Source of the DNA: Candidatus Melainabacteria bacterium
GTDB lineage: Bacteria; Cyanobacteriota; Vampirovibrionia; Obscuribacterales; Obscuribacteraceae
Length of the DNA: 41,958 nucleotides
Direction of reading: 5' to 3'
Assembly (NCBI GenBank): GCA_023250095.1
Contig: JAHFBI010000006.1
Location: 1 to 41,958 of the forward strand
Part shown: positions 6,635-22,309 of the stretch, in pieces
Numbering within the stretch: the stretch's first letter is position 1
How the letters are laid out: every line of letters begins with the position of its first letter
Notes under the pieces: model-generated
Databases searched by the model: none
What the model saw: the letters and a program-made list of their open reading frames with translations, nothing else
Told to the model about the DNA's origin: nothing
Made by a program: the position numbers and the translations under genes

Positions 6635-7870
6635 ATGCCTAAATCAATCAAACACACTGCTCTTCTTTCCCTCTTCTCATCATCTCTGCTTCTGGCGAGC
6701 GTAGATAATTCTCCGGCAAGCGCGCGCGGATTCGGCGGCGGCTTTCACGGCGGATATTCCGGCGGATATTCCGGCGGATATTCCGGCGGATATTCAGGTG
6801 GACGAAGCGGTGATTTCGATCGCGCCATGCCCGATGCAGGCGAATTTAGAAGCGACGAGGGCAGCGACCGGCCTGATTCCTTCGGGCGATCCGATGATTT
6901 TGGCTCACGCTCAGACGGCAGAGGCACCGATGGTTTTGACAACCGTTCGGACGGTTTCTTTGGCGACTGGGGCAATGAGCACTCCGGAGGATGGACACGC
7001 CCCTCAGAAGCCGACCTCAGCGCAGCCGCCGACAGAACCTGGAACAGCGGCATCAGTGATGTACAGCGCGCAATGCCCACTGATGGCGGGTTTGGCAAAG
7101 CTCTCAGCGGTCCGGAAGCTCAACGCTTGATGCCTGCCGGCAACAGGACAAGCCCTGTGTCGAACGCTAGCCTGAATTCGCGGGGCAGCACTATCAGGAA
7201 AAATTTCCAGCGGCCGGACCTCTTTGACAAATCCTGGTGGGCAAATCATCCCGATGCCTGGCGCTGGCCCGGCTGGCGAAATGACTGGGGTTGGGGCTGG
7301 GGTTGGGCGACCTGGCCGGAGTTGGCTGGGTTCTGGGGCGTGCCGGATGTGGATGCGCCGATTGATTATGATTATGGTGACAACATCACTTATCAAAACG
7401 ACACCGTCTATTACGGATCACAGCCTGTGGCCACCGCTTCTGACTATTACGATCAAGCACAGGGCCTGGCGCAATCACTTCCGCTACCTTCTTCTTCGGG
7501 GGACAGTCAGGCAATTGCTCCAACGACAACCACAACGGGAGACTGGAAGTCACTTGGCGTATTCTCGCTAACGCAGGGCGGGCAGTCCGACTCGACAGCG
7601 GTGTTTCAACTATCCGTGAACAAAGCCGGTGCCATCGCCGGCAATTACTGCAACCTGCTCACCAACGAGGTGAAGCCAGTACAAGGAGCCGTCGATAAGA
7701 AGCGCATGCGTGCAGCCTGGATCGTCCAGGGCAGTCAGGATGTGGTCTATGAAGCAGGTGTTGCCAATCTTTTGCACGCCCAATGTTCTGTTCTCGTCCA
7801 TTTCGGCAAGAGCAGCACACAGCAATGGATGCTCGTCAGACTGCAACAACCCGCATCCAGCAAGAAGTAA
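6635..7870 (+). CDS. Secreted hypothetical protein with GGYS tandem repeat and Trp/Gly-rich segment
   Basis: Signal peptide; GGYSGGYSGGYSGGYSGG; DWGWGWGWATW segment. Confidence 0.7.
   Translation: MPKSIKHTALLSLFSSSLLLASVDNSPASARGFGGGFHGGYSGGYSGGYSGGYSGGRSGDFDRAMPDAGEFRSDEGSDRPDSFGRSDDFGSRSDGRGTDGFDNRSDGFFGDWGNEHSGGWTRPSEADLSAAADRTWNSGISDVQRAMPTDGGFGKALSGPEAQRLMPAGNRTSPVSNASLNSRGSTIRKNFQRPDLFDKSWWANHPDAWRWPGWRNDWGWGWGWATWPELAGFWGVPDVDAPIDYDYGDNITYQNDTVYYGSQPVATASDYYDQAQGLAQSLPLPSSSGDSQAIAPTTTTTGDWKSLGVFSLTQGGQSDSTAVFQLSVNKAGAIAGNYCNLLTNEVKPVQGAVDKKRMRAAWIVQGSQDVVYEAGVANLLHAQCSVLVHFGKSSTQQWMLVRLQQPASSKK
6749..6796 (+). repeat. 12-bp tandem repeat (GGCGGATATTCC)x4 within CDS
   Basis: Four consecutive units, the last ending ...TTCA; encodes GGYS x4. 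Confidence 0.95.
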
Positions 7871-18528: not shown

Positions 18529-19611
18529 CTATATACCGAAGGCGCCTTTGATTGCCGCCCAGATGGAAGCAGACAACTTTCTTTGCCCTCGCGAGCCGCT
18601 TGAGCCGGACAGAAACTGCTGCAGTTCCTCAGGTGGGGCCGCTGTCGGGAATCTTCCCTCGTTTGTCATCAGCACTTCCGTAAGTCTTTCCATCATTGAC
18701 TCAGTCTGCCAGGTGGCAAGACCGAGTTCGGCAGCAAGCTCTTCGCGCCCTTGCTGGCAGGCCCCGAAGCGGCAAAGAAAGTCCCGGGCTTTTTCCTGCA
18801 GGGCAGAGGGCACCTCTTTGCCGGACAGCTCCTCGAGTATTCGCAGCATGACATTGCCGAAAAAAGGATGCAAGAGAAACCGGCAATGCCGGTCGGCAGT
18901 GAAGGCGCTGCCGGGGCTGATGTTGATACTGGAAATACGTCCGTCGGACGTTATGAGAAAGTTACGCCCGCTGGGATCGCGTTCGCAAAGAAGGACAAGC
19001 CGGAAGAAAATGGCTTCGGCGATACGTTCGCACAAGGCTCTGTCTTTCTTGATCAGAAGCGCCACAGTAAGGCTGCGTGAGTTTCCAAGCTCTTTCTGAG
19101 CGCGCATCCTCAGCCCTCGCTGCAGCTCTTCGCCGGAAACAGCCTCCACCCACCCGTTCATGACCGTGACTTGCCCGGTGAAAGGATCGACAAAGCACAC
19201 CCCCTGACGAGCCGCTGCAGGAGGTGCACCATCGGCAATACCGAAAAGATCGCTCAGGCGTTGAGCTGCAATCTGATAAGAAAGCCGTTGCTCAATTTCC
19301 TGACTGTCTCCTTCGTGAAAGATCACCTTCAGAAGGCGCCCGCTGTGGTCCAGTACAGGTTGCCCGCCATTACCCCTGATAAAGCCCTGAAACATCCTGG
19401 CACCATCGGCTCCGCCCATAAGATGGAAGGAAAGCTCGAGCGGCCACTCGGCAATCGCCGCAAGAACCTCCTTACGGCTCCCGAGCGCGATGACACCACT
19501 GTCTGAGACATTCTGCTGGCTGCCCTGCGCCGCTGATGAGGAAGAATAATTCTGCTAGAGACCTGTTTCTGACATCGCTATAGGATTGTACTCACTCTCC
19601 GAAACAGACAT
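18529..19611 (-). CDS. Hypothetical protein, possible degenerate kinase-like fold; frame continues through an in-frame TAG (19555-19557) to ATG 19611
   Basis: Canonical ORF is 18529-19419. The same frame is open upstream with protein-like sequence (QNYSSSSAAQGSQQNVSDSGVIALGSRKEVLAAIAEWPLELSFHL), meets TAG, then MSVSESEYNPIAMSETGL. Confidence 0.55.
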
Positions 19612-19624
19612 TTTATGGCGCTGG

Positions 19625-19683
19625 CGTGACAAAAGCGTGGCGGGTTCGTGACATAAGCGTGACCACACCGTGAAACATCCGTG
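19625..19683. promoter_or_regulatory. Six direct repeats with CGTG core at exact 11-bp spacing (Pho-box-like array)
   Basis: CGTG at 19625, 19636, 19647, 19658, 19669, 19680; 7-mers CGTGACA, CGTGGCG, CGTGACA, CGTGACC, CGTGAAA, CGTGCCA with 4-bp spacers. Confidence 0.75.
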
Positions 19684-19754
19684 CCACAAACCACAAAGCT
19701 TTGTGGCAGAACAACAGGCAGCGGCATGGCATCCGGGATAACAAAGAAGTCAAC

Positions 19755-20708
19755 TCAAGATGAGAAAGTCGAATAATAACGGTTCATGCCACCAAAGCCA
19801 CCAAACCCAGGAGCACAATCCAGACTCTGAATTGCTTTCAGAGAGAACGCTGCGCCACTCGGTCTGACAACAAAAAGTCCGCCATCGGACTGGGCAAAAT
19901 GCCTGTTGCCACAACTATCGACAGACTGGAGCTGCGGAGTCATCTCCCGCTCCACTTCTTTGCCCTCTCGCGAACGTCCGCTCCAGCCGATCAGCTCCCC
20001 CTGCACATTACGTCTGGCAGTCCAGACGATGCAGGGATTCACCGAGACATCGGTGTAACGATACAGCCGGCCACCCTCATACTCGAATTGATAGAGCTTG
20101 CCATTGGCATCCTGAATCCATATGACATACTCTGCCCCATCAGCATGCTTTTCCACCACGACAAAAGCCCGGTTGGGTCTGGTGGAATACTCGGTGAATT
20201 TGATCTCGACAGCCTGTCCGTCCTTGATCTGCGCCGTCTCCAGAACAGTGGTACCATCCGGACGATATGTCATCTGGCGTTGATATTCCAGAACCGCTAC
20301 TTCGCCGTTTGTCTGATTGACTTCTATACCACAAAGGGCTTCGGCGGCTACTGATTGGCCCTTCCTGTTACGCCCCCGCCAGCGACCATCGATTTTCATC
20401 CATGTGCGCGCCAGCGGATCGGTAAATTCAACGATGCGTCCCTTGCGGTAGCGGAAACTCCAGGCGCGTCCTTCCGCATCACGGAATTCCAGTATCAAAC
20501 CCTGCCGGTTGTATGTCGACTGCGACCCGTTGATACTCTTCATCGTATAGAGATCGACCTGGCAGTCGTCGGCCCCTTCCCATTTGGGAGCAAATTTGTC
20601 CACGGCGTGCCGTAGCACTGTCTTCAGCCCGTCAGCTATCAGATGCATACAGGCGGACAGCCCCTGCTCATCTTTTCCGGCAGCAACTTTCAGCTGACCT
20701 GCTGTCAT
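19755..20708 (-). CDS. RHS/YD-repeat-like hypothetical protein
   Basis: Two YD-like units: GRAWSFRYRKGRIVEFTDPLARTW and GKLYQFEYEGGRLYRYTD. Confidence 0.6.
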   Translation of the reverse strand: MTAGQLKVAAGKDEQGLSACMHLIADGLKTVLRHAVDKFAPKWEGADDCQVDLYTMKSINGSQSTYNRQGLILEFRDAEGRAWSFRYRKGRIVEFTDPLARTWMKIDGRWRGRNRKGQSVAAEALCGIEVNQTNGEVAVLEYQRQMTYRPDGTTVLETAQIKDGQAVEIKFTEYSTRPNRAFVVVEKHADGAEYVIWIQDANGKLYQFEYEGGRLYRYTDVSVNPCIVWTARRNVQGELIGWSGRSREGKEVEREMTPQLQSVDSCGNRHFAQSDGGLFVVRPSGAAFSLKAIQSLDCAPGFGGFGGMNRYYSTFSS

Positions 20709-20848
20709 GAGAAACTCCCTGAAGAGCCAATGCTCTCTCGTAAACCCGCCTTAAGCCCACACCGCCAATCTATAAGGAAGATGTGGCAAATATGTGAAAC
20801 TGAAACGCCCAGCCCATGCGGTAATTACGTAGCAAAGCGCATTGGCGA

Positions 20849-21511
20849 CTAATCAATCAAGTCATCGATAGGATCGTGAAAATGCTCAAGTTCTGCTGCT
20901 TGCGCACTGCGATTCAAAGAACGCAACATGCTGGCATATTCGGAAGCTACGCGCCGTCTCTCCTTGACGGAGCCTTCCACACCTTTCAAAATTGCTAGCG
21001 CTCGTGCATAGGCGGATTCCGCCTGAAGATATCTTCCGTCCTGCCGGTAAATGTTTGCCAAGGAAGAAAGTACTCTGGAGAGATTTTCACCACACAAGCC
21101 ATTTTCATAGTCGAAGTGCCCTGGTTGAAAAAGATGCTCGTAAAGAGGCAGCGACTGGCTGTATAGCCGCTCCGCCTGGCCAAAACGCTTCTCAGCGACC
21201 AAGACGTCCGCCAGCTCACTCAAGCTGGTGGCCCGGCGCAAATCGCTATCAACAAATTTCTTCGACTGCACAAGCGCATCGCCATAAAGTTTTTCCGCTT
21301 GCGAGTAATTCTTCGCAGTGAGGGCTATATAACCTTCTCGGCGCAGTTTTTCCCACGCTTCAGTCTCATCGACATAATTGAGCGGTGTCACCTGTCCACA
21401 GCCGGACAAAGAAGGAATCATCAGGCAGACAGCAAGAACAATCAGCCAGGCGGCACGGCCGAAAGGGGCATGTGATTTTGTGGCGTTCGACCGCGTGAAC
21501 AACCGGTTCAT
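20849..21511 (-). CDS. TPR-repeat lipoprotein
   Basis: Lipobox LSGC after hydrophobic N-terminus; KNYSQAEKLYGDAL, KRFGQAERLYSQSL, GRYLQAESAYARAL. Confidence 0.8.
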   Translation of the reverse strand: MNRLFTRSNATKSHAPFGRAAWLIVLAVCLMIPSLSGCGQVTPLNYVDETEAWEKLRREGYIALTAKNYSQAEKLYGDALVQSKKFVDSDLRRATSLSELADVLVAEKRFGQAERLYSQSLPLYEHLFQPGHFDYENGLCGENLSRVLSSLANIYRQDGRYLQAESAYARALAILKGVEGSVKERRRVASEYASMLRSLNRSAQAAELEHFHDPIDDLID

Positions 21512-21637: not shown

Positions 21638-22309
21638 TCAGGACTCGAGCTTATAGCCGACACCGTGCACAGTGCTTATAATGGAGGGCTGCCCGTTTGT
21701 GTCTATCTTCTGCCTGAGCCGCTTTACGTAGGTGCGTATCGTTTCGGGCGAGGCCTCGGAGTCCGAAGCCCAGACTCGGTCAAGCAGAGCCTCAGCGCTG
21801 AAAACCTGATTGGGATGCCTCATCAAGAATTCAAGCAGCGCAAACTCCTTGGGCAGAAGCTGCACTTCTTCATCATTGCGCGTGACGCGAAAGGTGCTGG
21901 TTTCCAGCACGATATTGCGCACTTTCAAGAGATTTGAGGAAACCGCTGCAGGACGCCGCAGAAGCGCCCGCACACGCGCTGAAACTTCATAGACGTCGAA
22001 GGGCTTGGTCAAATAATCATCGGCACCGGCATCCAGAGCCAGCACCTTTTCCTGCGTCTGCCGGCGAGCAGTCAGCATGAGGATCGGCGTAGAGCCTCCT
22101 GAGGCGCGATACTGCTTACAAACTTCCACCCCCTGCAATCCTGGAAGCATCCAGTCCAGGATAATCACGTCGAATTTGTAAAAACGGAGTCTCTCCAGGG
22201 CCTCCAGACCATTGTCTACCACCTCGACCAGGTGGTGTTCGTGCGTGAGAAATGCCCGAATTGGATCGGAGAGATCCGGCTCGTCCTCCACAATCAAAAC
22301 TTTTGCCAT
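21638..22309 (-). CDS. OmpR/PhoB-family response regulator
   Basis: VLIVEDEPDL, IILDWMLPG, DYLTKPFD receiver motifs; C-terminal winged helix EFALLEFLMRHPNQVFSAEALLDRVW...IRTYVKRLRQKI. Confidence 0.95.
   Translation of the reverse strand: MAKVLIVEDEPDLSDPIRAFLTHEHHLVEVVDNGLEALERLRFYKFDVIILDWMLPGLQGVEVCKQYRASGGSTPILMLTARRQTQEKVLALDAGADDYLTKPFDVYEVSARVRALLRRPAAVSSNLLKVRNIVLETSTFRVTRNDEEVQLLPKEFALLEFLMRHPNQVFSAEALLDRVWASDSEASPETIRTYVKRLRQKIDTNGQPSIISTVHGVGYKLES

Follow-up and report, generated by a model that had tools for sequence, protein, structure and literature searches.

The array and the genes around it

The window, by which we mean the whole analysed stretch of 41,958 nucleotides, carries on its minus strand a response regulator gene (21638..22309), a gene for a TPR protein with a lipoprotein-like N terminus (20849..21511) that lies between the regulator gene and the sites discussed below, and the genes 19755..20708 and 18529..19419. 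Upstream of the last of these, CGTG occurs at 19625, 19636, 19647, 19658, 19669 and 19680 with an exact period of 11 bp, just as the initial annotation had described. When 60 Markov shuffles of the window were searched for any 4-mer at periods of 6 to 40, the longest run of fixed period was four (5 of 60 shuffles), and six was never reached. The forward-strand 7-mers are CGTGACA, CGTGGCG, CGTGACA, CGTGACC, CGTGAAA and CGTGCCA. On the minus strand they become TKNCACR-type 7-mers with variable 4-bp spacers and read, from the promoter-proximal to the promoter-distal end, TGTCACG (unit 1, 19625..19631, the last before the −10 hexamer), CGCCACG (unit 2, 19636..19642), TGTCACG (unit 3, 19647..19653), GGTCACG (unit 4, 19658..19664), TTTCACG (unit 5, 19669..19675) and TGGCACG (unit 6, 19680..19686). 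The 7-mers are conserved, while the spacers AAAG, GGTT, TAAG, ACAC and CATC have no common sequence, and because the spacers differ from one another, the array is not a tandem repeat made by slippage. A direct-repeat operator of the OmpR/PhoB type comprises two or more direct 7-mers separated by 4 bp; here there are six exact ones, and two more lie at 20782-20799. A seventh unit may lie apart from the others at 19702..19708 (TGTGGCA, minus-strand TGCCACA), in register 22 bp past unit 6. Directly past the distal array end, a perfect 16-bp palindrome, CCACAAAGCTTTGTGG, occupies 19691-19706. Another periodic run is found at 6726-6790, where six GCGG words follow one another every 12 bp and other words, among them GGCG, CGGC and GGAT, keep the same period.

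In the minus-strand direction, 9 nt separate the promoter-proximal unit TGTCACG from the −10 hexamer TAAAAT (19615-19610), so that the array overlaps the −35 region at a set distance of 9 nt from the −10 hexamer. A sigma-70 promoter scan at the array returned no consensus −35/−10 promoter, which is expected because there is no −35 element. The array had been placed directly upstream of a minus-strand start at ATG 19611, and this assignment is refuted: the frame closes after 18 codons at TAG 19557, and the ATG overlaps the −10 hexamer. Past this stop, the earliest in-frame ATG, GTG or TTG is ATG 19419, and the true start codon of the gene is uncertain. With this start, the gene presumed to be under array control (18529..19419, minus strand) encodes 296 aa without a Pfam or NCBIfam match.

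No close ortholog of this protein was found among the genomes searched, only domains of 23-31% identity. These distantly related domains form parts of very large ORFs (loci L011, L010 and L021), and in genome G011 the relative lies in an open frame of up to 18,420 aa. The relatives have in common the pattern GDxDxHxxNF...NIDLDYAF, reminiscent of kinase-like folds; the 18529 protein itself is without some of its acidic residues. A family profile gave no significant match in Pfam and the PDB.

A smaller version of the same layout is located upstream of the neighbouring gene. The two-unit copy TGTGGCA-AATA-TGTGAAA at 20782-20799 had been correctly described, and on the minus strand it forms the putative operator TTTCACA-TATT-TGCCACA-N9-TAGATT (20767..20799), with TAGATT at 20772-20767 as −10 hexamer. 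The gene presumed to be under its control (19755..20708, minus strand) encodes 317 aa with an RHS/YD repeat. At locus L124, an ortholog of this gene (41.6% identity, E 6e-59) has a one-mismatch class-A site (two TKNCACR units followed by a −10 hexamer) upstream, and both site and ortholog lie past the regulator gene, in its orientation. At locus L129, a relative of the TPR protein comes after the regulator ortholog.

Recurrence of the layout in the genome and the family

All genome-wide work was done by pattern searches, with the reversed pattern as the control for enrichment. In this genome, TKNCACR-N4-TKNCACR-N9-TANNNT with at most one mismatch gave 26 sites against 4 for the control, and most of the 26 lie upstream of a same-strand ORF. 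Hence, the 11-bp layout is enriched elsewhere in the genome, as the initial annotation had asked to be checked. The genes 3' of the class-A sites are mostly without a family, and some have RHS/YD repeats. As to the suggested small local regulon, two sites are located less than 3 kb from the regulator gene, but about 20 others are spread elsewhere in the genome.

Across 50 family genomes, the counts were 129 sites against 1 in the control (class A) and 50 against 0 when the −10 hexamer was part of the pattern, and 61 against 4 and, in another case, 21 against 3 when the promoter was left out of it; these counts are not independent events since the genomes are related. To avoid circularity, the spacing between array and promoter was evaluated only on arrays found by patterns that are silent on the promoter, of which 34 were left once near-duplicates had been removed. 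TANNNT starts 9 nt past the last unit in 13 of these 34 arrays and 10 nt past it in a further 6 (19 of 34 in total), compared with about 0.4 TANNNT at each other offset, equivalent to p ~1e-21 under independence. Set aside were the array C388:4690, which is inside an ORF, and a match in the relative G035, which is a low-complexity 11-bp repeat. Outside the family, a phylum-wide search of 293 genomes showed a weak enrichment of 38 against 12, and thus the motif is largely a feature of this family. At five loci (L043, L047, L050, L053 and L055), arrays coincide with the start of a conserved protein of ~450 aa that looks secreted; it opens with a [LY]YVSP-like stretch, and the one tested had no Pfam match.

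Many family arrays are built from units [ACG]TTCACG, which we read from the sequences as a second class (class B). They are found upstream of TadE/TadG-like pilus genes and near regulator genes with a different recognition helix, SIDSVRTHMKTLRKK, and they also occur in genomes without an ortholog of the window regulator. At L117, L118, L119 and L120, class-B arrays with a −10 hexamer precede TadE/TadG-like pilus operons, and the array at L118 adjoins a response regulator and a histidine kinase. Judged by the bases before CACG (TGG, TTT, GGT, TGT, CGC and TGT from the distal end), the array of the window fits class A better.

The regulator gene next to the sites

The gene 21638..22309 (minus strand) encodes, as had been recognised, a PhoB/OmpR-family response regulator with Response_reg and Trans_reg_C domains. 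It is an orphan without an adjoining kinase gene, lies ~2 kb from the array and has the recognition helix SPETIRTYVKRLR. In the GTDB collection, its relatives belong to Candidatus Obscuribacterales/Melainabacteria. In 80 regulator-centred loci, 27 class-A sites were found against 0 in the control, and all 27 belong to loci whose regulator has 62% or more identity to that of the window, mostly 3-340 bp past the regulator stop codon and on the regulator's strand. None was found in ~49 paralog-centred loci, and eight paralog loci read in this genome were equally devoid of them. Nearly all ortholog loci encode the recognition helix SPETIRTY[IV]KRLR. With regards to presence in whole genomes, exact class-A sites occur in 37 of the 42 family genomes in which the regulator has a match of ~59% identity or more and in 1 of the 8 without such a match; the corresponding Fisher p of 6e-5 serves as a guide only, as the genomes are related and the split was drawn after the lists had been seen. 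Five genomes with an ortholog-like regulator match have no exact class-A site, and the closest orthologs by identity (L123, L125-L127 and L175) have none near the regulator gene. Taken together, the association as neighbours and the joint presence in related genomes make this regulator the most likely candidate to bind the array.

The regions 3' of the orthologs hold further recurring elements. Several of the orthologs (L130-L135 and L138) have two class-A sites past their 3' end, ~370-615 bp apart, the first of which contains a conserved run of nine A (CACAAAAAAAAATTACACT). A small protein of ~70-110 aa is often encoded 3' of the class-A site that follows the regulator (L139-L144 and L148-L152), and these small proteins have an LKSLQxLNLDELQYL-like stretch in common.

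The proposed link to phosphate was not supported, and a Pho regulon was rejected on three grounds: the regulator scores 211.9 with the PhoB model TIGR02154, below the cut-off of 296.2; PstS (PF12849), which was found in 13 of 14 controls, has no match in this 96% complete genome; and no phosphate gene was recognised among the downstream genes examined. The best full-length NCBIfam match of the regulator is cyanobacterial RppA (NF041734) with a score of 227.4, below the cut-off of 250. A likeness to the RppA system is that an RppB-like kinase follows a 62% identical relative at L145; unlike that system, the window regulator has no adjoining kinase gene and stays under the RppA cut-off.

A probable operator and how it may work

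The layout belongs to a known kind. A PHO box consists of two direct repeat units of 11 bp, with CTGTCAT in E. coli and GTTCACC in S. coelicolor (PMC4415409). The array resembles it in its head-to-tail 7-mers followed by 4 less conserved bases, its 11-bp units and its similar core (TGTCACG), but differs in having six contiguous units and in the points noted above (phosphate genes not recognised, PstS not found, regulator under the PhoB cut-off). On the site TCACAGC-N4-TCACAGC, M. tuberculosis PhoP forms a tandem dimer that can grow into trimers and tetramers, and it contacts bases through the residues N, V, E, S, Y and Y (PMC4832192). The array has the 7-bp motif, the 4-bp spacer and the TCAC core in common with this site. 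In an alignment with the PhoP sequence, the residues that we take to be the corresponding contacts in the window regulator (E, T, R, T, Y and R) largely differ. ArcA sites consist of two to five 11-bp direct repeats, often three to five, some of which are set off by 22 bp (PMC3798270). The array is similar in its 11-bp repeats and its possible unit set off by 22 bp, whereas ArcA sites vary in position and array-type sites are fixed relative to the −10 hexamer.

With a probability of roughly 0.6, we consider the array a multi-unit operator for an OmpR/PhoB-family regulator, most likely that of 21638-22309, which activates the 18529 gene. The proposal of an OmpR/PhoB-type operator as such is strongly supported by the geometry, the fixed distance to the −10 hexamer, the enrichment and the linkage to regulator genes. 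Phosphorylated regulator molecules would bind head-to-tail on a single helix face, one per 11-bp unit, and the promoter-proximal pair of units would take the place of the −35 element 9 nt upstream of TAAAAT. The bound pair would then recruit RNA polymerase for leftward transcription of the 18529 gene, while cooperative binding may come from the outer four units; the 19755 gene would be served likewise by the two-unit site at 20767-20799. From sequence, we infer binding, cooperativity, the identity of the acting paralog and a control that is probably activating.

Less probably, another OmpR/PhoB-family paralog of this genome binds the array by an unchanged mechanism, a reading to which we give a limited but real chance. 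At E <= 1e-70, the regulator has 16 matches in this genome, itself included, with related recognition helices such as SPDAIRTCLKRLR and SPETLRTCLKKLR, and class-B arrays occur in ortholog-less genomes and beside other regulator genes. However, class-A sites were absent from the ~49 paralog loci and from the eight read in this genome, compared with 27 in ortholog loci; the array units are nearer class A than class B; and two of the genome's sites lie close to the 21638-22309 gene. The earlier assignment of this regulator as the binder is hence favoured by the ortholog loci and weakened by the at least 15 paralogs in the genome.

It is improbable that the array is a repressor operator, at which the regulator would cover the promoter and shut off the 18529 gene in the manner of ArcA. 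ArcA does act on two to five 11-bp direct repeats and is chiefly a repressor (PMC3798270), and the units of the array overlap the −35 region. However, arrays end at a fixed 9-10 nt from the −10 hexamer before many different genes, which counts against repression because a repressor would not require such constant placement, and the lack of a consensus −35/−10 promoter at the array is as expected of an activator-dependent promoter. Activation by an OmpR/PhoB-family regulator also fits better than the use of the 11-bp repeats by an unrelated DNA-binding protein, for instance a replication protein of the iteron type or an activator from another family. Direct repeats can be targets of other families as well, but the sites are positioned at promoters, are linked to response regulator genes with an OmpR-type DNA-binding domain and have no inverted-repeat symmetry of CRP-type sites, so that we regard this explanation as very improbable. 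Least credible of all are functionless repeats due to chance or slippage: short words may align randomly in one window, and G035 does have a true low-complexity 11-bp repeat, but 7-mers kept between differing spacers, the enrichment over the reversed pattern and the fixed promoter distance in many genomes speak against it.

For the activator operator that we favour, the regulator, the unit sequence and the regulon appear undescribed in the open papers searched; within the open-licence literature, none was found that joins Obscuribacterales with a response regulator, or Melainabacteria with a binding motif and a regulon. Tentatively, and with rather more doubt than confidence, the OmpR/PhoB-family regulators of the Obscuribacterales might have expanded while their operators diverged in parallel into two or more classes of unit (TKNCACR, [ACG]TTCACG), with one promoter layout and mostly lineage-specific targets of the surface, RHS/YD-repeat and Tad-pilus-like kind, which would amount to an undescribed network with a readable regulator-operator code. 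The same layout at the same promoter distance recurs across this uncultured order, the regulators of which are unstudied. Since a pattern search picks out the motif with hardly any background, regulons can be predicted from sequence for an uncultured order, and the numerous paralogs, whose recognition helices differ slightly, render the specificity between regulator and operator testable.
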